DNA from: a virus
IMG/VR virus record: IMGVR_UViG_3300033141_000040
Location: 1-27,465 of that record
DNA: 27,465 nucleotides
Strand: one strand, 5' to 3'
A model generated the notes under the pieces. That model was not told where the DNA came from and did not search any database. It worked only from the letters and a program-made list of their open reading frames with translations. Shown piece by piece: positions 1-27,465 of the stretch; within the stretch, counting starts at the first letter, position 1; each line of letters opens with the position of its first letter. The translations under genes were made by a program, and so were the position numbers.

Positions 1-2248
1 ACATGTCTTTTTCATACATGTCATTCCAGACATTCTTCATTGATATCTCTGCAATTTGTTGTAGACCACCTGTCTCTGCTTCTGCCAAGGTAGCACCAGC
101 TACTCTAAATACACCTTGAGAAATTTTGTTCTGAACTACTTTATTCAAAGCCGCTCTAAACATAGAAGGAGTTGCTCCTTTAGGTAGCATTTTAGTAACC
201 TGGCCCATTAGACCAGAGATAATTGTTTTATTAGTAGCTATGTTTCTTAAACCATATCTTTCTAATACAGCTGTTGTCATAGCTAATGGAAGTATGATAG
301 CTTTCTTTTCTGTCTCTGTAACTTGTGCAAAGTCTGGATCGTTCTCCATCTCTTCCATCAAAGCATCTGTTTGCAGTAAACTAAACCCTACTGTTTGAGC
401 TACTGCACCTCTATTGGTAATATAGTTTTTAAAACTTTGCTGAAGTTTTTTAACCACACCCTTTACTTGTTGTTGAGATGCTTTAGATTTACCTCTACCA
501 AGAAGACCTAACATAATAGATGGGCCTGATTGAGCTAAACCAAATAGTCCTTCATATATAAATGAACGCTCTTTCATGTCTGCCATCAACTCATCAGATA
601 CACCTTCAGCTGCGGCAAAGTTCAGCATGTTTCTTACAAACTCCTTTTGAGGGTTTTTAGTTTCCTTAACCTCACGATCTAACACAAGTCTTCTTAACTT
701 GTCATCTATTGATTTATCAAAAATATCTACAGGAACTTCTTCATACCCACCTTTACCAAGAATACCTCCGTCCTTCTTCCACATCAACATGTCACCATCT
801 GCATTTAAAATTCTACTGGTGTCATATCCTTGTGCTTGTAAGTCAGCCTTAACTTTTTCTTGATACTCTGCGTCTATCTCATCTCTGTTTAAAGATTGAT
901 ACCATTTATTATAAACAGCTTCATCCTCTATATTATCAGGCAGAACATACCCTAATTCTTTAGCAACCTCTATGTATCTATCTTTCTTTTCTTCAGTACT
1001 CATACCGAAGTCCTCATCAATCTTTTGGGCTATACCATAGAAGGTGTCAACAAGTCCACCCCAACCAGCAGCTAAAGGTTTAGTGATACCTCTTGTAACG
1101 AATTCATTATACATTCCTTTTACAACAGCACTAACAGGGTTTCCTATCTCCTCTTTCATTAAGGTGTAATCACCAACAGCTGAGTTTATTTGAGCTTCAT
1201 AAGATTGAAAATCTTTAAACTCATTTTGTAGCTGAACCTTTATTGTGTTAAGAGATTGTTTATCTTTAAGTAACTGATTGTATTGAGCTACTTGTTCAGG
1301 GTTTAATTCAGGAAGTGTAGCTAACGCATCTATCTTTGCATCAACAGCTGTGTTATTACTTAAATAACTTTTGTACCTCTCAGTAAGTGTAGCTGCTTTT
1401 TGTTTGACATTCTTGATGTCAGCCATCATAGCTGCTGAACTAAAATATTTTTTTCTACTCTGGTCGTATTCGTCTATCAGTAAATCCATTTCAGGAGTTA
1501 CTATTTTATTCTTTTCTAAAAAGTTTTTTAATTCTTGAGCCTTCTCTTCACTACGAAAACCAAAGTTAGGATCTAAGTTTACTATTAACTTTTCTCCATT
1601 CTCAGCCTCAACGACCATGCTATCCCCAATACCTCTTTCAGTAAATTCAAAACCATAATCTTTAAAATGATATTTCATTTTAGCAACTACTTCCTCCTCT
1701 TCTCTCTCTATCATTTCACCAGTTATGTAGGCTAATGATCTTTCAAAAGGAGATGCGTTTGCATCATACTCTACAGTGGCATCTACACCACGCTCCAAAG
1801 GATCGTATTGTACATCTTCTGTAATAGTCTGGTCTTCTACAATCTCTTCCCCTTCAGGAGTATCTTGTATAGACTCACTATCAAACTGAGAAGTAACAAC
1901 ATCTTCTGTAGCTTCAGGAGTATCTTGATTATTATCTAAGGGGTTTGTTGGATCTGAAGACTCCGATGAGCCAGGTACTTCCTCTTGAACTTGAGTATTT
2001 GATTCCGTAAGCTCCTCTTCTCCAGTAGGTTGAGCAATGTCTTTTTTTTTTACTTTCACCATCCACTGTTCGAATGGTTCTCTTTCCTCAAAAGTATTAT
2101 CAGTGGAGGCAATCCACTCATACAGTTCTTTAGAATATTCTTTATCCTGTCCAACCTTTACAGACCACTCTTCAAAAGGTTCTCTTTCTGCAAATGTAGG
2201 ATCTGTTTCTGAAATCCAATCGTATAATAATTGTGGGTAATCTTCCAT
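1..2248 (-). CDS. Large internal virion/ejection-type protein, 3' end beyond the window
   Basis: The frame is open from ATG at 2248 to the left edge, giving at least 749 residues with no stop. The ATG shares its A with the TAA of the preceding gene (TAATG), which fixes the start. Residues 8-32 and 42-66 are two copies of one motif (LYDWISETDPTF and LYEWIASTDNTF, each followed by EREPFE.W). An acidic, low-complexity linker follows at about 70-150. The rest is mostly charged and helical, with hydrophobic Gly-rich stretches near residues 566-584 (GLFGLAQSGPSIMLGLLG) and 630-650. Being the last and largest gene after two smaller internal-protein candidates, it occupies the place of T7 gene 16 or the crAss cargo proteins. 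I see no lytic transglycosylase motif in the visible part. The role rests on position and composition only. Confidence 0.6.
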   Translation of the reverse strand, partial: MEDYPQLLYDWISETDPTFAEREPFEEWSVKVGQDKEYSKELYEWIASTDNTFEEREPFEQWMVKVKKKDIAQPTGEEELTESNTQVQEEVPGSSESSDPTNPLDNNQDTPEATEDVVTSQFDSESIQDTPEGEEIVEDQTITEDVQYDPLERGVDATVEYDANASPFERSLAYITGEMIEREEEEVVAKMKYHFKDYGFEFTERGIGDSMVVEAENGEKLIVNLDPNFGFRSEEKAQELKNFLEKNKIVTPEMDLLIDEYDQSRKKYFSSAAMMADIKNVKQKAATLTERYKSYLSNNTAVDAKIDALATLPELNPEQVAQYNQLLKDKQSLNTIKVQLQNEFKDFQSYEAQINSAVGDYTLMKEEIGNPVSAVVKGMYNEFVTRGITKPLAAGWGGLVDTFYGIAQKIDEDFGMSTEEKKDRYIEVAKELGYVLPDNIEDEAVYNKWYQSLNRDEIDAEYQEKVKADLQAQGYDTSRILNADGDMLMWKKDGGILGKGGYEEVPVDIFDKSIDDKLRRLVLDREVKETKNPQKEFVRNMLNFAAAEGVSDELMADMKERSFIYEGLFGLAQSGPSIMLGLLGRGKSKASQQQVKGVVKKLQQSFKNYITNRGAVAQTVGFSLLQTDALMEEMENDPDFAQVTETEKKAIILPLAMTTAVLERYGLRNIATNKTIISGLMGQVTKMLPKGATPSMFRAALNKVVQNKISQGVFRVAGATLAEAETGGLQQIAEISMKNVWNDMYEKDM
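2051..2227 (-). repeat. Two-copy 25-residue repeat at the N-terminus of the large virion protein
   Basis: The gene encodes two similar segments 34 residues apart, residues 8-32 and 42-66. Shared positions include L-Y-[DE]-W-I, T-D-x-T-F, E-R-E-P-F-E and W-x-V-K-V. The second copy ends next to a run of ten A residues on the coding strand. The pattern suggests an internal duplication of a small helical unit, perhaps a docking element. No function can be assigned from sequence alone. Confidence 0.75.
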
Positions 2249-4407
2249 TAAGATATTTGTTTAAAGGTTACATCAACTTTACTATAATCAACATGATAGT
2301 AATCACCAACTTTTACTTGAGCGTCTGGAACTTCTTGTGCCATTACACCTTGATATACACCTGAGCCATAAGACTTCTTATCTCTATATTCAAAGGTATA
2401 AATATTATGACCGTTTTTAGAAACACCAATTTTATTTATATTGGTTTTTAATCTTCTGTCTGATGGAGCTTGATTGCCTGTCTTCTTTTTATTCCTTTGA
2501 GTCTTCTTATAGTTATTGATTACTTTTTGAAGTTCACTTTGGAATTTTTGAGGTTCTTTCCTTGAATCAAACTCAATCCTTGTCTTATTACCGTCAATAG
2601 TAACTTCTACTGCGTTTTTGTCTCCAGTGCCTGTAAAAATGTCATCACTGTTTACACTATAATTAGTTGTCAGATCTTTCAATTCTTCAGCTAAAAGACT
2701 TGATGTTACAGTTGTATATTCGTTTAATAGAAGCTCATCTGCACCTTCCATCTTAGCTATAGTATTAAATCTATCTGCTAATTTTACAGGAGATCCCTCT
2801 ACCAATACCATTTTTGTTCCAAGGTTAGTATCTTTAATTACTTTATCACCAATACCTGTATAGTTAACTGTCTTACCTGAGCCGCCATAATCTTTTAATC
2901 CACCAGGATTAGCTTTGTTGTACTCTTTATATATTTGATCAGTTGAACCTTCTACTGGAGACATATATGACATTACTTCAGAGTTCATTAACTGTTGTGA
3001 TCTTGGTATCTTTTTACCATTAGAATCTAACTTAGGATTCCCTGAAGAATCTACTTCAAAACGAGCTACTTTTCTTGTGTCTCCATCTGCGTAAGTAATA
3101 ACAATATTATTTGGATCGCTGTTTCTATCTACTGGGTTATCTGCCAAAGGTTTTATTTTACCTTTATTTGATGCGTTATAAGAGTTTGCAAGTGTGGTAA
3201 CACCAGCGTTAAAGTCTTCTTGATCACCTGATATAATTTGTTGTGCTTGATTTACATAACTAAAGTTATCTTGCTGTAATTTTTCATTACCAAGTGTAGT
3301 TGCTGACTTTTGTTGCCACTGGAAACTACTTTCTTTCATGTCTTCTTTTCGACCTAACTTAGCTTTCATACTTCTTACGAAGTAATCTTCAGCAGCCTTT
3401 TGTTGTCCTTCAGTAATAGTTGGCTCTACGATAACACCGTTTTCTTTGTAGCCCATAACAATAATAGGATTCTGATCCTCCATACCTGGGTTAGCTGCAT
3501 TCCATTCATCGAAGTCTTTTTGATCTCCACCTCTAAACTTCTCACCCTTACTATTAGTAACACCATTATCAGCAAGTACACTACCTGTAGAAAAAGGACT
3601 TGATGTTACTGCTTTAGCTTTATCTCTTAAATAAGTTTCAGCCTCTGGTGTCTGCATAAAGTCATCAATAGTAACAACCGCTCTTGCACTTCCGTCTTTA
3701 CCCATAGTACTTGCATTACCAGCTGTAATATAATCACCAAGTTCAGTGGCAGTAGTATTAACTATTTCACCTACATTTACATTATCAATCTCTTGCTTAC
3801 TAATAGCAGTCATTCTATTGATACTAATCAAGTCATCTGGCCCATCAAGTAGGTTTCCATTTTCATCTATTCTACCAAAAGCTAAATTACCTGTTACTGG
3901 ATTAGTAACTAACTGTAAGTTTTTAAGATTACCAAAAGCCTCCATACGCTCACCAAGGTATGCTTCAAGAGAACTACCCTCACCATCTTTTAATCTTTTA
4001 GTGTATCGAGCAAAGTCCGTATCCCAGCTCTTTGCATTTTTCTGAAACTGAGTAAACCCTGAGCTAATGTTTTGTTTTAGTTTTTGAAAGTCTTGAGGTC
4101 TTAATTCACCTCTTTTCATTTTTTGTTCTGCCTCATAAATTGCATTGGCTGCACCATTAGCTCCATCGATAGTCATATTCATGAGCGTTGGATTATCCAT
4201 CGCATCAAGATTATTTAACTTATCTAAATTAGTTTTGGTATCAGCATCAATCTCGTCTTTTCTTCTTTGACGATCTTCAGCTACATCAGAAAAAGCTGTA
4301 GCAACTGACGAAAGTTGTTCTTGCCAATTTACATTCTGACTTGGATCAGGCTTTTCATAGACATTAAAGTCTATATTTCTTTTTGCTTTAGTAGGATCTA
4401 CTGCCAT
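2248..4407 (-). CDS. Internal virion/cargo-like protein with C-terminal S74 chaperone domain
   Basis: This 719-residue protein is hydrophilic and mostly helical over residues 1-640, with no beta-helix or collagen repeats of a receptor-binding fibre. The last 71 residues, from S649, match the Peptidase_S74 (endosialidase-type intramolecular chaperone) pattern: SDRRLKTNINKIGV, then NIYTFEY, then YQGVMAQEVP. In this family the domain promotes trimer folding and then cuts itself off just before the Ser of the S-D-R motif, so the predicted mature protein is about 648 residues. It starts 3 bases after the preceding gene, which ends in the same domain. Its place among small-to-large ejection proteins is like T7 gp15 or a crAss cargo protein, but a fibre or appendage role cannot be excluded. 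The S74 call is strong; the ejection role is inferred. Confidence 0.7.
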   Translation of the reverse strand: MAVDPTKAKRNIDFNVYEKPDPSQNVNWQEQLSSVATAFSDVAEDRQRRKDEIDADTKTNLDKLNNLDAMDNPTLMNMTIDGANGAANAIYEAEQKMKRGELRPQDFQKLKQNISSGFTQFQKNAKSWDTDFARYTKRLKDGEGSSLEAYLGERMEAFGNLKNLQLVTNPVTGNLAFGRIDENGNLLDGPDDLISINRMTAISKQEIDNVNVGEIVNTTATELGDYITAGNASTMGKDGSARAVVTIDDFMQTPEAETYLRDKAKAVTSSPFSTGSVLADNGVTNSKGEKFRGGDQKDFDEWNAANPGMEDQNPIIVMGYKENGVIVEPTITEGQQKAAEDYFVRSMKAKLGRKEDMKESSFQWQQKSATTLGNEKLQQDNFSYVNQAQQIISGDQEDFNAGVTTLANSYNASNKGKIKPLADNPVDRNSDPNNIVITYADGDTRKVARFEVDSSGNPKLDSNGKKIPRSQQLMNSEVMSYMSPVEGSTDQIYKEYNKANPGGLKDYGGSGKTVNYTGIGDKVIKDTNLGTKMVLVEGSPVKLADRFNTIAKMEGADELLLNEYTTVTSSLLAEELKDLTTNYSVNSDDIFTGTGDKNAVEVTIDGNKTRIEFDSRKEPQKFQSELQKVINNYKKTQRNKKKTGNQAPSDRRLKTNINKIGVSKNGHNIYTFEYRDKKSYGSGVYQGVMAQEVPDAQVKVGDYYHVDYSKVDVTFKQIS
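2251..2463 (-). other. S74-type intramolecular chaperone domain, copy 1
   Basis: This is the 3' end of the 719-residue gene, residues 649-719. The expected autocleavage point is just before S649 in the SDRRLK motif. The core positions NIY-x-F-x-Y and YQGVM-x-x-EVP match those of copy 2 at 4414-4614. Confidence 0.8.
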
Positions 4408-4410
4408 GTT

Positions 4411-5400
4411 TTATAATTCTTTAAATTCTACATCTATCATAGCGTAGTTAACCATATCATAAACCCCTGATCTAACAACCGCTTCTTTTGGAACTTCGTC
4501 AGACATAACTCCTTGGTATGTACCTTCTTGGTCTTTATACTTAAAACTATATATATTTAATCCGCTTGGGGAAACCCCTATCTTCTTAATGTTTTCTTTC
4601 AGCCTTCTGTCTGATCCAAATAAATTTGGATCTAATCCTAATGCGTTGCCTCCAAATTGATAGTTTTGATTTGTTAAACTAAATTTAGGCTTAGGTGAAA
4701 AAGAATTTAAACTTAAACCACCTGGCTGATTCATTTTTAAACTACCACTTAATGATGCTGGTGGTTGGAATCCGCCACTGGAAAAGCTATTACTACCAAA
4801 AGAAGACTTAGCAGCTGTATCACCAAGAGATTTACCAACACCCTTACTCTTTCCGAACAATGGTGCAGCAGCTCCTATAGCAGTAACAGTAGAACCTATA
4901 CCTTGTATACCCTGTTGAATAGACTCTGCTCTGGCAGCTTCAGCTGCATTCTTACGCTGGTTTTGTTCCTTTGCATAAGCCACATCCATTTCTAAAAGTT
5001 GTTGATTGACAGCGTCTTTAGATTGAGCTTTAGTTGCCTGAAGGTCAGATAGTTCTTGCCCCATAGCAATACGAGTATTCTCCGCATTCTCTGCTGAAGA
5101 AGCACCTATTCTACCTACACCAGCAGCTAATGCTCTGGCATCACCTTCTTGTAATGCTTCTGTATTTTGTTGAGCTACTGCTAAATTGTTTTCAAATTCT
5201 GCTTCATACGCATCAAGAGGTACATTAAGACCTTCGTAAAAATCTTTTGATGCTTTTGTTTTAGCATCTAACATTGCTTGTTTTGCTGCTTTATCAGCTT
5301 CTTCAGCTGCTCTCTTTTGCTTTGCGGCATTGGCGAAACTCATACCTGTACTGGCTACTGCTGTTCCTATTCCTACAACCGCTGATGTTACTGCTGCCAT
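4411..5400 (-). CDS. Gp14-like internal virion protein with C-terminal S74 chaperone domain
   Basis: The 329-residue protein opens with a hydrophobic Ala/Gly/Val-rich segment (residues about 3-26). A long Ala/Glu/Gln/Lys-rich coiled-coil region follows (about 27-165), then a second hydrophobic segment (about 168-190) and a Ser/Gly/Asn-rich linker. This layout resembles small membrane-active ejection proteins such as T7 gp14 and P22 gp7. From S263 to the end are 67 residues of S74 type: SDRRLKENIKKIGVSPSG, then NIYSFKYKD, then YQGVMSDEVP. Cutting at S263 would release a mature protein of about 262 residues. It lies between the GNAT-fold gene and the 719-residue protein, with gaps of 1 and 3 bases. 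A chaperone tail on a membrane-type helical protein is unusual. Confidence 0.65.
   Translation of the reverse strand: MAAVTSAVVGIGTAVASTGMSFANAAKQKRAAEEADKAAKQAMLDAKTKASKDFYEGLNVPLDAYEAEFENNLAVAQQNTEALQEGDARALAAGVGRIGASSAENAENTRIAMGQELSDLQATKAQSKDAVNQQLLEMDVAYAKEQNQRKNAAEAARAESIQQGIQGIGSTVTAIGAAAPLFGKSKGVGKSLGDTAAKSSFGSNSFSSGGFQPPASLSGSLKMNQPGGLSLNSFSPKPKFSLTNQNYQFGGNALGLDPNLFGSDRRLKENIKKIGVSPSGLNIYSFKYKDQEGTYQGVMSDEVPKEAVVRSGVYDMVNYAMIDVEFKEL
4414..4614 (-). other. S74-type intramolecular chaperone domain, copy 2
   Basis: This is the 3' end of the 329-residue gene, residues 263-329, with the expected cleavage before S263. It is 4 residues shorter than copy 1, lacking part of the loop before YQGVM. 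By eye, roughly half the protein positions match copy 1. Confidence 0.8.
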
Positions 5401-5401
5401 A

Positions 5402-5812
5402 TTATATTGTTTTAATCATTTCGTGAGTGTAAGTACTGCCTTCAACAAAACCTACTTTTTTATATACATTAATTAAAGGTTTGTTTTTAATTAATGCGTA
5501 TATATATTTTTTACCCATTCTCTCCGCATCATCGCTGATGGTTTGTACCAAAAGTTCTAATGCTTCTTTTCTTTTTTGTCTGTCTTTATATTTGAGATTA
5601 GATATAATCCAATCACACCATACTGCCTTAGAGTTAGTTACATACATAAACCCAGCACATATTGGGGTATCTTTATCATAAACAATGTAACCACCCATTC
5701 CGTCTTCTGGTAAAAACTCTTTTGAAGGAGGAGTCCACCTCCAATCTTTCCACCATCCACACAGAATATCTTTATAATCATTTTCTCTAAGCGGTATTAT
5801 ACTTAATTCCAT
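5402..5812 (-). CDS. GNAT-fold protein, T7 gp13-like virion assembly factor
   Basis: I choose the ATG at 5812 (136 residues) over an in-frame TTG at 5821. The C-terminal half has a GNAT signature: a helix followed by a strand (KKYIYALIKN) and the characteristic N-x-x-x-I-N-V-Y-K-K-V-G-F segment. The acetyl-CoA pyrophosphate loop (R/Q-x-x-G-x-G/A) is not recognisable; the place where it should be reads RQKRKEA, without glycine. The length is close to that of T7 gp13 (138 residues), a GNAT-related protein encoded just before the internal core proteins, and the position here is the same. I infer a non-catalytic assembly role; a true acetyltransferase of a small phage substrate is the alternative. 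Confidence 0.6.
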   Translation of the reverse strand: MELSIIPLRENDYKDILCGWWKDWRWTPPSKEFLPEDGMGGYIVYDKDTPICAGFMYVTNSKAVWCDWIISNLKYKDRQKRKEALELLVQTISDDAERMGKKYIYALIKNKPLINVYKKVGFVEGSTYTHEMIKTI

Positions 5813-5818
5813 TACTCG

Positions 5819-5826
5819 CAAAGATA
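5819..5826 (-). promoter_or_regulatory. Bacteroidetes-type -7 box (TATCTTTG) before the ejection genes
   Basis: On the minus strand this reads TATCTTTG, an exact match to the Bacteroidetes -7 consensus TAnnTTTG. It lies in the short gap between the hub-like protein and the GNAT-fold gene. I see no TTG at the -33 position. The box is only 6 bases from the ATG at 5812, so a transcript from it would be leaderless or nearly so. With such an AT-rich genome a chance match is possible. Confidence 0.35.
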
Positions 5827-5834
5827 ATAAAAAT

Positions 5835-6614
5835 CTATGGATATGATTTCATCACACTACTACCGACAGAAAACAGCTCAACCGCTTGAGTGTTTGTGTT
5901 TTCAAGCGTATACTGCATAAAGTAACCACGAGCACCATGAGATTCGGCAACTGGGTTCTTGTAATAAAATATATATGATCCGTTTGGAGGAATAATACCA
6001 GCCTGTCCAATAGGATCAGGAACTGATTCGTCTACTGTTAATACATTATTTACTTGATCTATACCTGTTACCTGACCAAAGTAAAGAGAGTTAGCACCAG
6101 CATATATATAGTCTCCTATACTTATTATACTTCCAAGATCAACATTGAATGAAATTGTAAATGCACCAGGGATACCTCCAATAAGTAAACAAGATCCTAT
6201 TCCGTTAGCTGACCTTAGATTGAAGTTGACATTAGTACTATTGTCTCTAAGGAATGTAAACCATTCTCTTTCCTTCTGTACAAAATAAGTATCCAACATT
6301 GATCCTCCACTTAACTCTGTAAACAAAGCTGTACAAGCCCAAGCGTCATCACTTTCGTAAGACATTGTTTTAAACAACTTAATGGTTTGAGGTTCAGTAT
6401 TAAAGACAGATGTTATTCGAGAGTTATATTGAACACCATAATAATTGTTTCTTAATACATTGGTATTGTGTCTATAGAGATTTCCATTTCTAAATGTATA
6501 GAAATAACTATTCATCCCAATCATAAAATCAGGAATGTATGAATAGAAAGAAGGCCAACCTTTAGCCTCTTCGCTATATGATAATGTATACTCTTCTGCT
6601 GTTTGTACCGCCAT
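5835..6614 (-). CDS. Tail hub-like domain protein
   Basis: The 259-residue protein has an N-terminal region (about 20-90) rich in aromatic residues: GWPSFYSYIPDFMIGMNSYF, then TFRNGNLYRHN, then NNYYGVQYNS. This style of sequence is, from memory, found at the C-terminal end of hub/stabilization proteins in crAss-like phages. Here it is a separate gene, with the 312-residue Cys-rich gene between it and the nozzle gene. Residues about 163-196 carry the GDYI...GQVTGID...LTVDES beta module that also occurs in the capsid and connector proteins. It starts 1 base after the preceding stop, so it belongs to the tail operon. The structural role is well supported by context; the exact position in the tail is not. 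Confidence 0.5.
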   Translation of the reverse strand: MAVQTAEEYTLSYSEEAKGWPSFYSYIPDFMIGMNSYFYTFRNGNLYRHNTNVLRNNYYGVQYNSRITSVFNTEPQTIKLFKTMSYESDDAWACTALFTELSGGSMLDTYFVQKEREWFTFLRDNSTNVNFNLRSANGIGSCLLIGGIPGAFTISFNVDLGSIISIGDYIYAGANSLYFGQVTGIDQVNNVLTVDESVPDPIGQAGIIPPNGSYIFYYKNPVAESHGARGYFMQYTLENTNTQAVELFSVGSSVMKSYP

Positions 6615-7567: not shown

Positions 7568-10500
7568 TTAACATGTTCCTCCATCTATTACTGCACCGTT
7601 ATTACCAATTTCAATCCAAGTTTTAGGGAAAGGCCCTGGATTAGCATTAGCTACAATGTAGAATCCTGATGGAAGAGGATCATTGAAATTGCAATTGTTA
7701 TTGTTAAAGCAAACCTCTCCAATCTGAGGAACAGATCCAGTACCATGGAATGTATTTTTTATACTTCCAGGATCTCCAACATTTGTTGTACAAGCTAATG
7801 ATTGAGTAGATTGCATTGGCCCAAACCATGCTTCAGTACAAGTAAAGTTACAACCACAACACGCATCAGCTGGAGTTGTAGCGGAGTAACATAATTGTGA
7901 CTGAGTAGTTTCTCGTAAATCCCAAACTAAGTACAAGTACTGATTAGCTGGAGGCATAGTTGCCGCAGTTGTAGTTACAGATGCCTCATAATTTCCACTG
8001 CTTGGATTTAGAATTGGTACAATCTCTGCAATATTTGGATCTTGTAACAATAAATTCATACCAGCTGGAGTGTTAGGATATAAAGAATTCGATGATAACC
8101 ATTTGAAACTATCCTGTAAAGGATTAAAGTCAAAGTCATCAAAGTTCTGTTTTAAACTACGCATAGTAATTGTAGCTCCAGAATAAGGGAAAACCCCAAC
8201 TGAAGAATTACCAGTTTGCGATATATACTCTGCTGGAGTATTGGTAGATAAAGAAGCTAAGTCATTTACATTTGGACTAACCGTAGTGGTATCATTCCAG
8301 TTATATTCATAGTGAATAAACTTCCCAGTATCACTTGGTGAGTTTAGTACTACTCTAACAATAGTAAGCTCGTTAGATGGAATACAATTAACTGTAACCC
8401 CATAACTTGCACTACCTTGTGGCTGTACTGTTATCTCAACTTCATTTGGAATACCAACTCCTTTATTAAAAGTAAGAGTTCCTGAAGAATTTACAACACC
8501 AGTTGAATAAGCTACACCGTTATATACAGCAGTAACTATAATAGATCCAGAGGTTATGGTGTATGGTATATCTACATCCCCAATAGACTCTCCTAAATTT
8601 ACTATATAGTTTAAATCAGAGACTGCGTTTACTTGAGTGATAGTAGTTCCACATGGAGTTCCAACTTGAGGAGTTGGTATCTCTCTATTGTTTGTACTCA
8701 GTACATACTCATTCATGTACGGATCAAATCCACCTAACTTTTGAGTACTAAGCTGAGTAACAAATTGGTCTCTAAACCAAGAACGCATACCATATGAAGA
8801 TACAATTTGTATCTGATCATTACCTCTTGATGTTCCTCTTAAATTAATTACTGAAGACCTTTTAGTGTCCGTAAAGAACATGTCAGCTCCCCAAGCAGCA
8901 AAACTCTCAGGATTAAAACTAATACCATATTCTTCAATACGAGCTACTTGCGTTCCTAAAACTTCTGGCACAGATGCAATTGCTCCACCACCAGTAGAAT
9001 CTGTTATAACATTTTTAGATGATAACACATAAGATATTCTGTCTTCTTGTAAAGTAAGTATATCTGTTTCTCTTGAATGTAATAATTGTATAGGGCCAAA
9101 TGATGGCTCACAATCTTTGTAGTTAACTAATCCTAAATTAAACTCATTTAAGTTATTTGAATTAGCAGCTCCACTAAACACACCACTATATGTCATACCA
9201 GCAAAACGATCTGCTTCTTTGTAATCTTGATTAGATACAGCTAAAACTCTTTGCCCCATAACCATAGACTTGGTTGTTGGAGAATCAGTTATTCTAAAAC
9301 TTTCTACACCATTACCAAAAGTATAACAGTTAGCAAACTTTAAAGTCTGTATTAAAGGTTGAGCAGCGTTTTGATTTTGATCTGATGAGCCTCCAGCTGA
9401 TTGATGATATCTTTTACCATCAGCTGGATCTACCACGATATCCATCATTTCTGAAGCATCATAAAATAAATTTGGATCTGCTTCTTGTGGTTCAGTTTCC
9501 CATACAATTAATTGTCCACCACGAGTGATTTCAATTCTTGTTCCAACATGTCCTGGTCTTTTATCGTAGAAAGGCCCACATCTTGGAATACCACATCTAT
9601 TTCTAAAAAATAACTCTCCACCTTGTTCGTATACAAATAGCTTTGTTACGAAACAAGAAGATCCAATAGCATTAGATGAGTTGTAAGGCCCTAATCCATT
9701 ATTTAAAAATTGCTGACACGACACCCCATTACTACTACCTGTAGTAAAGTCTTGCCCATCACCATTCCACCATAGATAAAAGTTAGGGTAATCTTGACTG
9801 GCTACAAAAGACTCGTCATATCTGTAATGTTTCTTATTACAATTATTTCCTTTACTACCTCTCCAGTTATCTATTTGAACTCTAATAGTAGAACCAGCTG
9901 GTAGGTCATATGGGTTTCCAGCGTTAGGTGATGTAGAAGGAAAGTTTAAACTATAACTTTTTGAAAGACTACAACCTGTACTATTAGAAGAACCACTCTT
10001 CATACCATAGTTTATAGTGGCATCTTCTCCTATCTCCGTATTAAACCCACCAGGTTTTATAGACATATATAAACCAGGTAAACTACTCGCTGGAGCATTA
10101 GCTAACTCATCTTTACCGTAGGCTTTTATTTCTAATATCTTACAAATCTCTTGAGTGTTAGTAGGCCCTAAAGTATCCATTTTGATAATTAGGTTCATTC
10201 CTGTTTGAGCAATACTTGTATTGTCTCCTTCAAGTTTAAACCAAAATACCGAAGCATCTTGTGGATCTTCATAATAAGTACTTGCGTATATTGTATTGTA
10301 ACTTCCTTCACTTGGCTTAACAACAAACTTATATTTAGTTGCCCAGTATGGAGGTAGGTTACTTAAAGTAACTTGAATAGCATTTTTATCAGGTGCTGAA
10401 GATGGTGGAACAAATATGGTATTTGAATTAGAAACCAAAGCTGTTGATGCTCTACCAAAATCATCCATATAAACAATAGCGGTTTCATAATCTCTATTAC

Positions 10501-12379
10501 TATGAAGACTTTGAGTGTCTGATAACAATAAAAAAGCACCGCTACTTGCGTAATCTAAAAATGTAAAAAACTCCCACTGCTCAGAAACATCTACACCAGG
10601 TGCTGTTTCTGAATAATATCTTACAGCTGGTGCTTGAAGCTGAAACCCAGTAGCAGTAGGGGTGTACGCAAATCCTTGTTGAGTACATATACTTGTGGCT
10701 GGAGGGCCTGGAGCGGCACAACCTGTAGTGATAGAACTATTTATAATCTCCATATTAGTTGCTGGAGGTGCTATAATATAGTTGTTAAATTTATCTGTTA
10801 ATGTTCCTCCGTTACCTGATAAGTTTACAGGTGTTAAGGGTTGGAAGTTGCCAAGAGGTGTTGTCCCTATTGGTGTTTCAAACTCTACAGAGTTAACTAA
10901 ATCATTTAGAGAGTTATATTGTTGTGTAGCAATAAAACTCCATTGTAAATCAAATGGGCCTGTTTGCTTAAATGTTGGATCAACATCAACTCCACCGTTA
11001 TCCTGTGGGTTGTTACCACCTGGTGCAGACTGCATGGAGACCTCAAAGTTTAATGTAAAACCAGCGTATATAGGAAAAGTAATATTACTTAAATCAAAAG
11101 TAATTAACGACTCGTTAAAAGTTCCAGTCCCTGGTTGTCCAACTGTATAGTTAACACCATTCCCAGAAACAGGAGCTGCTAACTCTTCAGCACCAATATC
11201 CTGAATAAGATGATTAGTAATATAATCAATAGGAATTTTAGCTCCGTTTTCATTTACAATATCATAACCATCTACATAGTTTCCGTATACCAACCTATTA
11301 CCCTGAATGGTTTGAGCTTTAGCTATTCGAGGAACATTATCATACTGTCTTAGTAATTCATCTGATCCTAAAGTTGTGTATATTTTACTATTAGTAAAAG
11401 TTAAACTTTTTTGAATATTATCAGCCCAACCTAAATCAGATTTGTTATATCTTTCAATAACATATATAACATTAGTATTAGAGTCTTTATATAATAAGTC
11501 AACTTGAGTAACTCTTTTAGATCCAGTGGAAAAGGTAATGGTAGCTCCATTATACCTGTTTATCATACCACCATTATTATATTTATCTAAATCAAACCTA
11601 AATGCTTTAGGCTGAAAAGCTGCATTACTAAATAAAGAAGTGGCACTATATCCGCCATCGGTGTATCTATATCTATACGCAAAAGATAAGAATCTTGTTT
11701 CCATATAATTCTCATCCCCAGGAAAGTTTTCAAGTTTTACATTTGGAACTGGTAAAGGAATATTACCACCAATAGGTGTTTCAAACCCAGGGGGCTTGAC
11801 AATAACCGTCAAGTCTTCAGGAACTATTTGATCTACACCAGCCGCTGGATCTAAATAATTTCTTTTTACATTAATTGTTCTCGGAGGATTTAAATCATCC
11901 GTAAAAAATAATAAGTCTTCTATTTTATTGACTCCTGTTATTAAATACTTAGGATCAAAATTCAAAGTAGTTTTACCAGAACCGCTACCATCATCTATTG
12001 ATACCACATGATATTGCGTAATCTCTGTATTAGTATTAAATGATACTATTAAATCTACCTTACCAGAAGGAGATAATGGGTTGTTAGAATCATGAACAAA
12101 CCAGTATATGGTTTCATTCATACCATCTTCAAACGCACCAATACAAAATGTAGTAGGAGGTTGACCAGGTAATGCTGGGGTTGATAAAGGGCTTCCACCA
12201 TACTGCAAAAAACTTAATTGAGTATTACCCTTAGAGTTTTCTACCGCACCAATCTCAGTAGTTTCGGTAGATCCTAAACGAACATTTAATGCATCAACAT
12301 ACTCGCCTGGAGGAACTAATCGTTCATCCACACTCTTGTTCATTTTACCAGCTATAAAATTTGATCTAATATCCGCCAT
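7568..12379 (-). CDS. Tail nozzle/hub (muzzle or stabilization) protein
   Basis: At 1603 residues this is the largest complete gene. The N-terminus reads MADIRSNFIAGKMNKSVDER, then LVPPGEYVDALNVR and TEIGAVENSKGN. That opening is typical, as I recall it, of the P22 gp10/T7 gp12-like nozzle proteins and the crAss-like stabilization or muzzle protein that closes the tail tip. The middle is long, beta-rich and aromatic, consistent with propeller domains. A later segment (MFFTDTKRSSVINLRGTSRG, then GGFDPYMNEYVLS) has the propeller-blade look of these hubs. The last ~97 residues are Cys-rich, with C1507/C1510/C1514 in CxxCxFxC spacing and a terminal Cys, shared with the next gene. It follows two ring/adaptor genes, which supports the role. 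Confidence 0.7.
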   Translation of the reverse strand: MADIRSNFIAGKMNKSVDERLVPPGEYVDALNVRLGSTETTEIGAVENSKGNTQLSFLQYGGSPLSTPALPGQPPTTFCIGAFEDGMNETIYWFVHDSNNPLSPSGKVDLIVSFNTNTEITQYHVVSIDDGSGSGKTTLNFDPKYLITGVNKIEDLLFFTDDLNPPRTINVKRNYLDPAAGVDQIVPEDLTVIVKPPGFETPIGGNIPLPVPNVKLENFPGDENYMETRFLSFAYRYRYTDGGYSATSLFSNAAFQPKAFRFDLDKYNNGGMINRYNGATITFSTGSKRVTQVDLLYKDSNTNVIYVIERYNKSDLGWADNIQKSLTFTNSKIYTTLGSDELLRQYDNVPRIAKAQTIQGNRLVYGNYVDGYDIVNENGAKIPIDYITNHLIQDIGAEELAAPVSGNGVNYTVGQPGTGTFNESLITFDLSNITFPIYAGFTLNFEVSMQSAPGGNNPQDNGGVDVDPTFKQTGPFDLQWSFIATQQYNSLNDLVNSVEFETPIGTTPLGNFQPLTPVNLSGNGGTLTDKFNNYIIAPPATNMEIINSSITTGCAAPGPPATSICTQQGFAYTPTATGFQLQAPAVRYYSETAPGVDVSEQWEFFTFLDYASSGAFLLLSDTQSLHSNRDYETAIVYMDDFGRASTALVSNSNTIFVPPSSAPDKNAIQVTLSNLPPYWATKYKFVVKPSEGSYNTIYASTYYEDPQDASVFWFKLEGDNTSIAQTGMNLIIKMDTLGPTNTQEICKILEIKAYGKDELANAPASSLPGLYMSIKPGGFNTEIGEDATINYGMKSGSSNSTGCSLSKSYSLNFPSTSPNAGNPYDLPAGSTIRVQIDNWRGSKGNNCNKKHYRYDESFVASQDYPNFYLWWNGDGQDFTTGSSNGVSCQQFLNNGLGPYNSSNAIGSSCFVTKLFVYEQGGELFFRNRCGIPRCGPFYDKRPGHVGTRIEITRGGQLIVWETEPQEADPNLFYDASEMMDIVVDPADGKRYHQSAGGSSDQNQNAAQPLIQTLKFANCYTFGNGVESFRITDSPTTKSMVMGQRVLAVSNQDYKEADRFAGMTYSGVFSGAANSNNLNEFNLGLVNYKDCEPSFGPIQLLHSRETDILTLQEDRISYVLSSKNVITDSTGGGAIASVPEVLGTQVARIEEYGISFNPESFAAWGADMFFTDTKRSSVINLRGTSRGNDQIQIVSSYGMRSWFRDQFVTQLSTQKLGGFDPYMNEYVLSTNNREIPTPQVGTPCGTTITQVNAVSDLNYIVNLGESIGDVDIPYTITSGSIIVTAVYNGVAYSTGVVNSSGTLTFNKGVGIPNEVEITVQPQGSASYGVTVNCIPSNELTIVRVVLNSPSDTGKFIHYEYNWNDTTTVSPNVNDLASLSTNTPAEYISQTGNSSVGVFPYSGATITMRSLKQNFDDFDFNPLQDSFKWLSSNSLYPNTPAGMNLLLQDPNIAEIVPILNPSSGNYEASVTTTAATMPPANQYLYLVWDLRETTQSQLCYSATTPADACCGCNFTCTEAWFGPMQSTQSLACTTNVGDPGSIKNTFHGTGSVPQIGEVCFNNNNCNFNDPLPSGFYIVANANPGPFPKTWIEIGNNGAVIDGGTC

Positions 12380-23854: not shown

Positions 23855-24426
23855 TATTTAAATTTATAAAACATTACATATACTTCCCTTCCCTCTTTCC
23901 AAGATCTATTAGGATATTTACTATGGAAATAGTTAGAAGGATAAGATACAAGTCTGTTTTGTTCATAACCAAGTACAGATGTTAGTCTCCACTTATTTAA
24001 CATTTCAGCATCTTCCGTAAGCAATAAATCAAATTCTTTATCGCTAATATCCATGGGTAGTTTATCACCATATATATCATGTTCCCACAAAGCAGTTCCA
24101 TTTAACTCTTCTAATTCTCTTGGTGACATATAAAGAACTAAAGCTCTATCTGGCTGTTCTCCATTTATTTTTGCGTCTGCATGTATTCTCCAGCTTGTAT
24201 CTAAATCATCATTAGACATTCTAAAGAAACTTAATATATTGTATAACTCTTTTCCTTCAAAGTTAGACAGCTTACTTAATACATAATCATCAAATGCTTT
24301 CGGTGACTCTTGAGTATAGAAGTGTTTTTCACCCACCTTTCTATCAAGCCATTTACCTTTTTTTAAATAGTCAGTAGCTATTTTAAATAAATCTTTATCT
24401 ACGAAATCATCTAATATATATATCAT
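23854..24426 (-). CDS. 2-oxoglutarate/Fe(II)-dependent oxygenase
   Basis: The 190-residue protein shows the facial triad of the family: H82 and D84 in RIHADAKINGE and H168 in NYFHSKYPNRSW, followed by R180, likely the 2-oxoglutarate-binding residue. Between them, ALVLYMS and NGTALWEHDIYGD fit the double-stranded beta-helix core. The size matches compact prolyl-4-hydroxylase-like enzymes common in marine phages. The substrate is unknown; candidates include virion protein residues, host proteins or nucleobases. The gene overlaps the GroES-like gene by four bases (ATGA) and touches the next through TAATG, so it is co-translated with the packaging genes. Confidence 0.75.
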   Translation of the reverse strand: MIYILDDFVDKDLFKIATDYLKKGKWLDRKVGEKHFYTQESPKAFDDYVLSKLSNFEGKELYNILSFFRMSNDDLDTSWRIHADAKINGEQPDRALVLYMSPRELEELNGTALWEHDIYGDKLPMDISDKEFDLLLTEDAEMLNKWRLTSVLGYEQNRLVSYPSNYFHSKYPNRSWKEGREVYVMFYKFK

Positions 24427-24986
24427 AAAGTCATGGTTATATTATTAGTAAACATTCGATATAGCTTTTCCCCTTCCACTTGAAAAGGATATTCACTACC
24501 AGGAGTGAATGATATCTCATCTCCTTGTTTTACACCTAAATCCAACAACTCTTGATTAATATATTTTATTTTACCAAACAGAGGTTCTTCTCCTCCTGGT
24601 TTAAATATGTATGAGTCCTTTATATCTACAGGTTCAACAAAACAATACTTTCCCCAAGCATTCCATTCTTTACCATTATGATACATATAAAATTGTTCTT
24701 GGTCTACTAAGAACAAATTTTCTTTTAAATAACTTCTTCCGCTTTTTCTTCTACCCTTCATATCGTTGTAGAATTTAAAAACATTGTGATGCACTAATAA
24801 AGTATCACCCTTTTTAATAGGGCCTTTATATCCAATAGGAGTTTCAACAACTATTGCAAAACGATTAGATGCGGTATGATCTTCCTCAGAAACACTGGTA
24901 ATAAAATTAACTCCACCAATCTCTTTCTGATTATCATACCTCCTGTCGTTAACTGGAGTTACAATAAAGCAGTATGGAGATTTCAT
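24423..24986 (-). CDS. Protein with two GroES-like (co-chaperonin fold) halves
   Basis: The 187-residue protein divides into two similar halves. The first (about 7-95) has FIVTPVNDRRYDN, then GGVNFIT, AIVVETPIG and IKKGDTLLVHH. The second (about 113-187) has YCFVEPVDIKDS, GKIKYIN, GVKQGDEISFTPGSEYPF and GEKLYRMFTNNI. The pattern (strand with P-V, a loop, G-x-[IV], K-x-G-D before a strand, then a last strand ending in the x-N-D/N-I type) resembles GroES. Each half is shorter than GroES (about 97), and the mobile loop is not obvious. Phages including T4 (gp31) encode GroES-like partners for capsid folding. The fold call is moderate; chaperonin partnership is inferred. Confidence 0.45.
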   Translation of the reverse strand: MKSPYCFIVTPVNDRRYDNQKEIGGVNFITSVSEEDHTASNRFAIVVETPIGYKGPIKKGDTLLVHHNVFKFYNDMKGRRKSGRSYLKENLFLVDQEQFYMYHNGKEWNAWGKYCFVEPVDIKDSYIFKPGGEEPLFGKIKYINQELLDLGVKQGDEISFTPGSEYPFQVEGEKLYRMFTNNITMTL

Positions 24987-25220: not shown

Positions 25221-27465
25221 TTATACTACATATAGCCTCTCCAATTCAATATCAATCTGTCCTGAGAACTTAAATAAAGAAGTTGCAGTTGTCGTTACAG
25301 CCATCATAATAGCCTCATCTTGTCCTAATCTCTTATCTGATGTAGGTATTCCTGATAAATCCATTTGACAACAATTCATATCATTATATAAACCAGCTGT
25401 TTGTATAAGAGTACAACTACCCATTAATGTCCATGTTACAACATCTGCTTCATTATTACATATGGCTCTTTTATAAAGATTTACAGTTAGATTTTTTATA
25501 TCCATAGCTAACCGTACATTAACCGTACACAACTCATAAAACTCATTAGATGTACATGGGCCATTTGATCCAGGTGAAGCCCACAAGATTGAGTTCATAA
25601 TTCTTCCTCCATTGCTTGGATTAGTTATTGTAGGATCAAAAATATTATAACCTATCAAATCGTTAGACATTATTGTGTTAGGAGGAAGAGGGGCTGTAGG
25701 ATCGCAAGGATCTTCGAAAAGCCAAAAGTCTTTGTTTGGATCTTGTTTTGTTAGACCAGCATTAGGACTATAAAACTTTCTACTTCTAAAAATAGTATTA
25801 TTTCCACTACCACCACCAGAAGCTGCGATAGTAACTGAACCAGTGCTTTGATTTATATTAATTCCAGCACCAGCAACAATTTCTGTTACACCAGTGTTGG
25901 TGATTGTAAGAGTATCAACATTACTTGTTGTGGTTTGTATACCAGTTCCTCCTAAGACATCAAGTTTATCCTGATCACTAATAGTTTGAGTTGGGCCTCC
26001 ATCAGCTGTAACATCAAAAGATGTCATACCACCACCACCGCCACCAGAAGATGCGATAGTTATTTCATTAGAACCATTGTCTGTTAAGGTAATATTAGCA
26101 CCAGCTACTAATTTTACTATATCAGTATTAGCTGGATTACTTTGTAGATAAGTCATATCTACATTAGAACCGTTTTGTGCACTGGTAAATGTTGCAGATC
26201 CACCTACTGTTCCGTTAGAAGCAGCGGTAATCTGTCCTTGAGCATTTACTGTGATATCAGCATTTGTGTAAGCCCCAGCCACTACCCCTGTATTAGCTAA
26301 AGTATAAGTAACAGTATCTACCGCTGTAACAGCAGATGTTAATCCTGTTCCAGCTAAGAAGAAAACACTATCACCATCAGTAACACCTTGGGTTGCTCCA
26401 GCACCATCTTCTATCTTAAATGAACTCATAGATCCACCACCACCAGTAGCGTCAAGTGTTATTGAACTTCCAGTATCAGTAATGGTAATATTAGTACCAG
26501 CAATAATCTGAACATTATCTATTGTGCCATCACTACCTATTAAACTTAGGGTTGAATTGTTTCCGTTCTGTTGTGATGATAAATCATATGTTGTGTCTGT
26601 TGGAGTAGCTCCACTACTAATAGCAGATACATGGCCATACTGATCAACTGTAACGGTTGCATAAGTAAATTGTCCAGCTGGGCCTGTACCAAGAGCGTGG
26701 TGTATCTCTACGGTATCTACCGCCATTGCCTTAGTGTAAATAGGATTGTTACCTACTTGACCTGTAAAAGTAAGTATATCATTATTTACTATTGGTAGGT
26801 TAGCACCACTATCAGCTCTTACATCAAAAGTACTCATTCCTCCAGGTGCATTCACCCATGTTATAGAGTTACCATTTGATTGTAGTATTTGACCAGCAGC
26901 TCCTGTTCCATTGTTAGCTACTATGAATCCAGGAGTCATAGAAGGTGCGGTTATATTTGCTGCACCTGTTAATATGATATTATTATTTGAGGTATTACCA
27001 ACAGTTAAGGTATCATCTAAATCACAACACTTTAGAGAAGGTGTAGTCCACTCAACTCCTGTTGCTGTTGCTGTTAAATAATCACCCACATTACCTACTG
27101 ATGCATTTGCACTAATTGTAGTGTTCGTTCCTAAAACTAAACTTCCTGATAAATCAATAAGACCTGTTAGATTAATATCTTGTACAGCTGTATTACCAGC
27201 ATCTAAAACCTCTTGAAGTGTCGATGCTCCTGTATTATTTATCCAAGCAACTCCAGCTCCAGTTGAGCTAAGGATTTGACCAGCAACTCCAACTAATCCG
27301 TTGTTGTCTTCTATTGGCCCATCAACATCTAAAGTTCCAGAGAAAGTATTTGTTCCACTCCATGTATTTGCACCTGAAGATTGGATTAATGCATTAGCAT
27401 CAAAGGTTGTGCTACTCGGCCCTTCAAAGTTAATACCTACACCTATAGCGGTATTACCAGCTGTT
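25221..27465 (-). CDS. Modular tail-fibre-like protein, 5' end beyond the window
   Basis: The frame remains open to the right edge, so the apparent GTG start at 27089 is internal and at least 747 residues are encoded. The N-terminal visible part is a string of short strands with three related units: AGQILSSTGAGVAW, VGDYLTATATGVEW and AGQILQSNGNSITW. Next, three A/B module pairs follow with Gly-rich hinges. The C-terminal ~190 residues (from about NNTIFRSRKFYSPNAG) form a distinct domain with several Cys (in PCDP, PCTS, LCTV, ICNN, SCTL and NCCQ), ending in ELERLYVV. This layout of a repetitive stalk with a globular tip fits a fibre or adhesin. No chaperone tail is present. Confidence 0.6.
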   Translation of the reverse strand, partial: TAGNTAIGVGINFEGPSSTTFDANALIQSSGANTWSGTNTFSGTLDVDGPIEDNNGLVGVAGQILSSTGAGVAWINNTGASTLQEVLDAGNTAVQDINLTGLIDLSGSLVLGTNTTISANASVGNVGDYLTATATGVEWTTPSLKCCDLDDTLTVGNTSNNNIILTGAANITAPSMTPGFIVANNGTGAAGQILQSNGNSITWVNAPGGMSTFDVRADSGANLPIVNNDILTFTGQVGNNPIYTKAMAVDTVEIHHALGTGPAGQFTYATVTVDQYGHVSAISSGATPTDTTYDLSSQQNGNNSTLSLIGSDGTIDNVQIIAGTNITITDTGSSITLDATGGGGSMSSFKIEDGAGATQGVTDGDSVFFLAGTGLTSAVTAVDTVTYTLANTGVVAGAYTNADITVNAQGQITAASNGTVGGSATFTSAQNGSNVDMTYLQSNPANTDIVKLVAGANITLTDNGSNEITIASSGGGGGGMTSFDVTADGGPTQTISDQDKLDVLGGTGIQTTTSNVDTLTITNTGVTEIVAGAGININQSTGSVTIAASGGGSGNNTIFRSRKFYSPNAGLTKQDPNKDFWLFEDPCDPTAPLPPNTIMSNDLIGYNIFDPTITNPSNGGRIMNSILWASPGSNGPCTSNEFYELCTVNVRLAMDIKNLTVNLYKRAICNNEADVVTWTLMGSCTLIQTAGLYNDMNCCQMDLSGIPTSDKRLGQDEAIMMAVTTTATSLFKFSGQIDIELERLYVV
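25790..26840 (-). repeat. Three A/B module pairs in the fibre-like gene, about 400 bases each
   Basis: Module A starts at about 26837, 26429 and 26027 (GGMSTFDVRADSG, GSMSSFKIEDGAG, GGMTSFDVTADGG) and continues through a VDTV/VDTL strand. Module B follows with QNG...IIAGTNITITDTGSS, QNG...LVAGANITLTDNGSN and a shorter third copy with IVAGAGININQSTGS. Each pair ends in a Gly-rich hinge. The period is 408 then 402 bases. The copies are diverged in sequence. Confidence 0.75.

Follow-up and report, generated by a model that had tools for sequence, protein, structure and literature searches.

Short S74 domains on two probable ejection proteins of a virus: possible self-removing assembly tags

Two adjacent genes of the IMG/VR virus record IMGVR_UViG_3300033141_000040, analysed here over a stretch of 27,465 bases (the window), raise a general question: by what means does a phage control its insoluble, membrane-active ejection proteins before they are packaged? 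The genes lie on the minus strand in the positions of ejection-protein genes and encode P329 (329 residues, 4411..5400) and P719 (719 residues, 2248..4407). Each product ends in a short domain of the Peptidase_S74 family, a domain that is usual on trimeric fibres, and we refer to these domains as S74a (residues 263–329 of P329, 4414..4614, minus strand) and S74b (residues 649–719 of P719, 2251..2463, minus strand). We give an even chance to the possibility that they are self-removing assembly tags on ejection proteins, an account in which we infer the cleavage itself, its timing and the job of the tag beforehand. A removable tag, if this is true, would be a simple and directly testable answer to the question in many marine and soil podoviruses.

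Both tails belong to the S74 family by profile score. With Pfam PF13884 (Peptidase_S74, curated cut-off 22 bits), P719 scored 25.6 bits from residue 649 and P329 22.9 bits from residue 263, and the tails counted from the serine are exactly 71 and 67 residues long, which bears out the sequence-only reading that had placed S74 domains of these lengths at both ends. When a profile of 12 short-S74 tails was compared with the PDB, five sequences were returned at E 10 or better. The alignments to neck appendage protein 3gud (E 0.0095), MyRF 7dc3 (0.073) and long tail fibre 6f45 (0.22) start at or beside the serine and keep the S74 motif, and two further matches, a de novo TIM barrel (E 0.022) and CT253 (E 0.34), were taken as chance. 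Because these E-values are weak, family identity is based on the Pfam score together with the motif.

In the excerpted text of PMC8326128 and PMC3742440, the S74 cut is made by a serine and a lysine five residues further on, S911/K916 in endosialidase NF and S587/K592 in MyRF. The equivalent pair stands in both window tails, with the predicted nucleophile Ser263 (4612-4614) and Lys268 (4597-4599) in S74a, and Ser649 (2461-2463) and Lys654 (2446-2448) in S74b, all on the minus strand. Ser1, Asp2 and Lys6 are invariant in all 98 distinct domains that we collected. One of the two patterns used in collecting them was SDRRLKx[ND]I, and the 42 distinct domains that do not match it all keep these three residues, while positions 3, 5 and 7 vary. 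The Ser/Lys dyad is likewise invariant in sets of 12 and 50 domains, which overlap with the set of 98. Moreover, aromatic positions 24 and 26 of the short domains align with Y615 and Y617 of MyRF, and among six P329-type domains (15 pairs) nonsynonymous divergence (dN) was 0.03-0.18 against a synonymous divergence (dS) of 0.6-2.1; purifying selection acts on S74a. In a domain tree built from few columns and with weak support, S74a and S74b fall in different groups, and for this reason we rejected a recent duplication of the domain from one gene to its neighbour.

The second line of evidence is gene order. On the minus strand of the window, the genes for terminase, portal, major virion structural protein, a muzzle-like protein and a GNAT-like protein are followed by P329, P719 and the start of a giant gene (2..2248, 749 residues inside the window), which continues past the edge and whose counterpart in MW202828 is annotated over 11.5 kb. 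P329 thus heads a small-medium-giant trio and is its smallest gene, which is the place that PMC8954989 gives to the small ejection protein in an operon of three ejection genes. In cultured relatives the small, middle and giant genes occupy the same place behind the muzzle-like gene, and in Cellulophaga phage phi18:3 the syntenic gp120, gp121 and gp123, which are S74-less, are annotated as structural from tandem mass spectrometry. Within a set of 23 proteins, the P329 profile matched phi38:1 gp099 (E 4e-9), elemo86 (8e-6) and phi18:3 gp120 (0.0015), none of which was matched by the S74 profile in the same set; the P719 profile found no counterpart there except that of MW202828, whose proteins match both profiles by construction, being rows of those alignments. 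T7 gp14-16 and crAss001 gp45 and gp46 gave no significant match to either profile.

The likeness of P329 to T7 gp14 or P22 gp7, as originally suggested, stands for position and stops short in sequence. P329 shares with these proteins its place at the head of the operon, its size rank and its mostly helical character, but adds an S74 tail and a linker, and its Pfam T7_gp14 match reached 15.1 bits against a cut-off of 27; among 20 P329 relatives, four matched this family at E 0.1 or better, the best at 0.0047. A further parallel is offered by the crAss001 cargo proteins C1 (gp45) and C2 (gp46), whose genes, according to PMC10172136, lie directly behind the muzzle gene as does the window trio; they differ in showing no significant profile likeness to P329 or P719 and no S74 match. 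Taken with the open reading frames (ORFs), the homologues of P329 and the predicted fold of P719, these data place P329 and P719 as probably the small (T7 gp14 / P22 gp7) and middle (gp15-like) members of an ejection-protein trio.

To what kind of partner, then, are the two domains attached? The AlphaFold2 single-chain model of P329 (mean predicted local distance difference test score, pLDDT, 70.5; predicted template modelling score, pTM, 0.31) and the alignments divide the protein into a conserved body (residues 1-181, 4858..5400) with predicted helices at 16-57, 62-85 and 88-178, a variable linker (residues 182-262, 4615..4857) that runs up to the predicted scissile bond and has pLDDT below 50 over nearly all of 182-252, and the S74 domain, which is compact and confident, with ten-residue pLDDT means of 85-97 over 261-329. 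P719 up to its predicted scissile bond (residues 1-648, 2464..4407) is modelled with a helical N-terminus (28-159) followed by an alpha/beta region (mean pLDDT 76.0, pTM 0.40), and a helix at 619-643 and a low-confidence stretch precede the S74 end, which is itself poorly modelled. The earlier description of the upstream parts as helical was therefore apt for P329 and for the start of P719, the rest of P719 being modelled as alpha/beta. No beta-helix appeared in either model, in agreement with the sequence-only reading, although these are predictions for single chains and not for an intertwined trimer; the partners are predicted to be helical in P329 and alpha/beta in P719, not beta-helical. 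Two hydrophobic segments had been noted in P329, and a simple scan found the one at 1-19 clear (Kyte-Doolittle mean 1.44) and the one at 164-182 weak (1.19); for comparison, T7-type gp14s have four or five predicted transmembrane helices, as stated in the consulted text of PMC8954989. Chou-Fasman averages served for orientation only.

Fold and profile comparisons of these upstream parts yielded little. Among the PDB fold matches listed for the two models there was no S74 protein and no ejection protein, T7 gp15 included; a second pass with VIA-align gave no Z of 8 or more, and weak matches to kinase, ribosome and capping-protein structures were not accepted as relatives. In a viral structure library the P719 model had 15 matches at E 0.001 or better, followed by Tenacibaculum phage Gundel_1 at 0.0084. 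Against solved structures the P329 profile found nothing below E 0.4, and the P719 profile matched two major capsid proteins, the better at E 0.01 and over a portion of the middle region only.

We next asked whether the arrangement recurs, a search that the sequence-only reading had proposed. An IMG/VR scan with the short-S74 alignment found 344 relatives, of which the best 80 supplied the loci for the trio count; because the S74 searches were built from short domains, they favour short ones. An ORF was counted as heading a trio if it was followed by a gene of 300-950 residues and then by a gene of 600 residues or more; ORFs without a closed start were left out, as were duplicates sharing their first 50 residues. 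Of 39 ORFs with a C-terminal S74 and up to 450 upstream residues, 22 head such a trio, 8 do not and 9 are undecidable (22/30 decidable), as compared with 1, 38 and 15 for 54 control ORFs of 240-450 residues from the same loci (1/39 decidable). The corresponding Fisher value of 1.9e-10 overstates the evidence because the contigs are related, and longer overlapping ORFs displaced at least two S74 ORFs (L177 and L188). Some of the exceptions are beta-rich, fibre-like proteins, and among 24 further S74 ORFs with longer upstream parts a trio was found in none of the 22 decidable cases. S74 does recur on ejection-type genes in other podoviruses.

Family assignments of 50 S74-bearing proteins point in two directions. 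PHROG 'DNA ejection protein' matched 13 of them and 'DNA ejection' three, and individual tail-fibre families matched as many as 12, in part by way of the S74 end; NCBIfam contributed nothing beyond transglycosylase and collagen-like hits, each to an individual protein. Of 41 short proteins, 23 have a stretch of 20 residues immediately before S74 that lies at or above the 95th hydrophobicity percentile of the protein's inner windows. Neither P329 nor P719 shows a hydrophobic segment directly before its S74, so this feature was kept out of our explanation.

The scan also brought up other architectures. Nineteen of the 24 ORFs with longer upstream parts form a group of proteins of 729-912 residues (in the range L137-L167) with a C-terminal short S74, possibly on the hub of pelagic myoviruses; baseplate hub or tail lysozyme families matched two of the 50 scanned proteins, presumably the two that belong to this group. 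In a second group (L003 5179-8736, L168, L176, L178, L180, L184 and L185), about 190-420 residues are followed by S74 and then by several hundred more residues, and L185 has two S74 domains in one protein. An SLT transglycosylase domain is present in at least one protein of the 50-protein set, in which L003 and L168 are the scanned members with internal S74. Self-cutting, if it takes place in such proteins, would split a fused ejection protein.

Named phages repeat the pattern. In nine of the ten S74 records examined (H6/1, PAE2, RHph_Y1_10, pCB2047-C, Mwe-JY13, phiGT1, phiM5, vB_OspP_OH and NYA-2014a), S74 ends a gene of 303-468 residues, which by annotation precedes injection, ejection, internal virion, peptidoglycan-hydrolase-type or large unnamed genes; three of the nine are Sulfitobacter phages and near relatives in the S74 domain. 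The tenth, MW202675, has S74 inside 'internal virion protein D'. Like P329, phiGT1_17, phiM5_27, EVB56_081 of RHph_Y1_10 and gp17 of H6/1 bear a C-terminal short S74 on the gene before injection or internal virion genes, as does PAE2_13, which precedes large unnamed genes rather than annotated injection genes. The parts of the PAE2 and H6/1 proteins that precede S74 match PHROG 'DNA ejection' (phrog_598; E 5.7e-30 and 3.7e-16, respectively), and phiM5_27, which three annotated internal virion protein genes follow, is annotated as detected in the particle proteome. These phages differ from the window in having one S74 place per record at E 0.001 instead of two neighbours; their hosts (those of phiGT1, phiM5, RHph_Y1_10, H6/1 and PAE2) are Pseudomonadota, and the window proteins match H6/1, PAE2 and RHph_Y1_10 only in the S74 end, at most extending a few residues upstream of it.

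The 73 loci with P329 homologues reduce to a tree of 53 distinct rows, seven with S74 and 46 without, and in the best tree the distribution of S74 calls for five changes, of which well-supported branches enforce four. The clade of the window comprises 11 rows, six with S74 and five without, and two of these five S74-less relatives end exactly at the predicted cut and a third one residue beyond it: L013 stops after LFG where the window reads LFG/SDRR, L017 after NYFK where L011 reads NYFG/SDRR, and L036 after SIFG where L039 reads SIF/SDRR (the slash marking the cut). These ends were compared by eye on an alignment of the variable linker, with no statistical test. L017, without S74, and L011, with it, share nearly the same linker, yet their bodies do not group together, which indicates that recombination has shuffled these gene ends.

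Among P719 homologues S74 is present in three of 51 complete ORFs, repeats included. Two of the three come from near-identical contigs of the window's virus, and the third is L084, from the same contig as L027. In L027 S74b is 71% identical to that of the window and the aligned rest of P719 30%. A probable further case is L106 (4001-6778), in which the small and middle ejection genes are each split over two overlapping frames, either through a sequencing error or through a genuine change; S74 is on the second piece of the middle gene, which continues to the locus end. At L130 (3288-6210) S74 stands on a 735-residue gene in the middle position and not on the preceding 232-residue gene, possibly an independent middle-protein case.

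The invariant dyad, the junction at the serine, the repeated gain and loss, and the relatives that stop at this junction find their simplest account in a self-removing tag. P329 and P719 would each carry the short C-terminal S74 cassette as a removable assembly tag that holds or guides the new protein during oligomerisation at the portal; the tag would then cut its own chain just before Ser263 or Ser649 by means of the Ser-Lys dyad and depart, and the packaged protein would resemble the product that S74-less relatives encode directly. A holding role is plausible because T7 gp14 alone is insoluble in water and is brought into solution by gp15 within the core (PMC8954989, in part), and because the S74 of MyRF cuts only when trimeric (PMC8326128, in part).

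Several observations weigh against this account. S74 is not essential to ejection, since most of the distinct P329 homologues do without it. Of the two remaining close S74-less relatives, L038 ends nine residues past the cut and L024 is not placeable with confidence. The serine, as the first residue of the domain, would in any case be the junction if the domain came and went in one piece. Foldseek found nothing in the PDB at E 0.001 for either model, and P719 matched T7 gp15 neither in sequence nor among the folds listed, gene order being what carries its assignment as a middle ejection protein. A main objection comes from MyRF. Its trimerisation is driven chiefly by helix alpha4 at the C-terminus (N670-K705), three copies of which wind into a coiled coil; single mutations there abolish trimerisation and cleavage alike, and helix alpha1 lends support as a collar. 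No comparable C-terminal helix is seen in the P329 model, and the stretch aligned to alpha1 is a five-residue turn (277-281), most of alpha1 being gone; for S74b, which is poorly modelled, the lack of an alpha4 equivalent is deduced from the length of 71 residues after the cut. Canonical activation may hence be impossible, and the window tails do not conform to the ordinary trimerising chaperone that had been assumed at the outset.

Indeed, short S74s as a whole depart from the canonical domains of endosialidase NF, neck appendage gp12 and MyRF, with which they share the core sequence, the Ser1/Lys6 dyad and the two aromatic residues. Of 85 complete distinct tails, 80 measure 60-85 residues (median 68), the other five being internal domains, as compared with 129 residues for the 3gud chain and 119 for MyRF (S587-K705). 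They are without the C-terminal coiled-coil helix, and their upstream partner is not modelled as a triple beta-helix. The window tails are members of the Pfam S74 family by score but lie outside the definition of the canonical trimeric chaperone. If the short S74 is unable to trimerise alone, cutting would depend on the assembly of its partner. Tentatively, and with more doubt than confidence, we suggest that short S74s may be a distinct class that has lost its own trimerising helix, cannot assemble by itself and cuts only once a helical partner gathers the copies. It would then act as a check on the formation of the ejection complex before the membrane-active part is freed, and would have been gained and lost repeatedly among small and middle ejection proteins and fibres.

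The absence of the helix needed for cleavage in MyRF speaks for a domain that is never cut, a small folded unit carried in the virion, where it helps the ejection proteins to oligomerise or to dock to one another, to the portal or to the tail. The compact and confidently predicted S74a fits such a unit, as does the annotation of phiM5_27 in particles, which is silent on any missing tail. Strict conservation of Ser1 and Lys6 beside varying positions 3, 5 and 7 is hard to square with a purely structural role, however, and three S74-less relatives end at the cut, and we consider an uncut domain unlikely. Alternatively, S74 may be a passenger cassette that spreads among fibre and other structural genes by recombination of gene ends and is tolerated without function on ejection proteins. 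Patchy gain and loss, the nearly identical linkers of L017 and L011 on ungrouped bodies, the greater identity of S74b than of the rest of P719 between the window and L027, and the weak tree in which S74a lies among both fibre-like (L120, L121, L131) and ejection-position (L115, L117, L128) domains would all follow from this. Purifying selection and the invariant dyad would not, nor would the recurrence of S74 on the first trio gene across distant podoviruses, and we rate a functionless passenger as less probable still.

Finally, P329 and P719 might be parts of a trimeric external appendage in which S74 folds the protein as it does in tail fibres. That is the usual setting of the domain; matches to several PHROG tail-fibre families occur among the S74-bearing proteins, for two of these families in 12 of the 50, with the S74 end included in those matches that were shown singly, and phiM5_27 is itself annotated as a putative tailspike. 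Against this reading, the models (P329 helical with a low-confidence linker, P719 alpha/beta) contain no beta-helix, and both the order of the genes and their homologues point to ejection-type proteins. We disfavour the appendage and regard it as very improbable.

Neither the S74 domain nor ejection proteins are new, and the combination already appears in GenBank: a note on phiGT1_17 mentions S74, and other such genes are named S74-domain structural proteins. No title or abstract opening listed from the open-licence PMC literature deals with S74 on ejection proteins, most full texts being outside that search, and the text of the phiGT1 paper has no occurrence of S74, endosialidase or peptidase. 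If the proposed self-removing tag is real, the meaning of the S74 annotation would change for genes now called tail fiber domain-containing protein, putative tailspike or chaperone of endosialidase.

The host of the virus is most likely a Bacteroidota bacterium, judging by the relatives of its terminase, which is 74% identical to that of MW202828 and about 45% to those of Flavobacterium elemoviruses, with matches to Cellulophaga, Tenacibaculum and Maribacter phages too. Of the neighbouring genes on the minus strand, the GNAT-like gene (5402..5821; phrog_17252, E 1.8e-41, with weak GNAT Pfam matches) lies directly upstream of P329, and beyond it are a muzzle C-terminal-like structural protein (5835..6614; crAss_MUZ_C, E 3e-12) and a large muzzle/nozzle-like structural protein (7568..12379; phrog_14478, E 8.6e-222). 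The GNAT-like gene is a recurrent neighbour of the small ejection gene: acetyltransferases occupy the same place in pCB2047-C and vB_OspP_OH, and the GenBank note on phiGT1_16 ties such neighbour genes to P22 gp14 and T7 IVPA. A repetitive fibre-like open frame (25221-27464), with no significant PHROG match, continues past the window edge. Upstream of the terminase gene lies a GroES-like co-chaperonin gene (24423-24986; phrog_13932, E 3e-19), and a chaperonin cpn10 gene is similarly placed in the elemovirus record.

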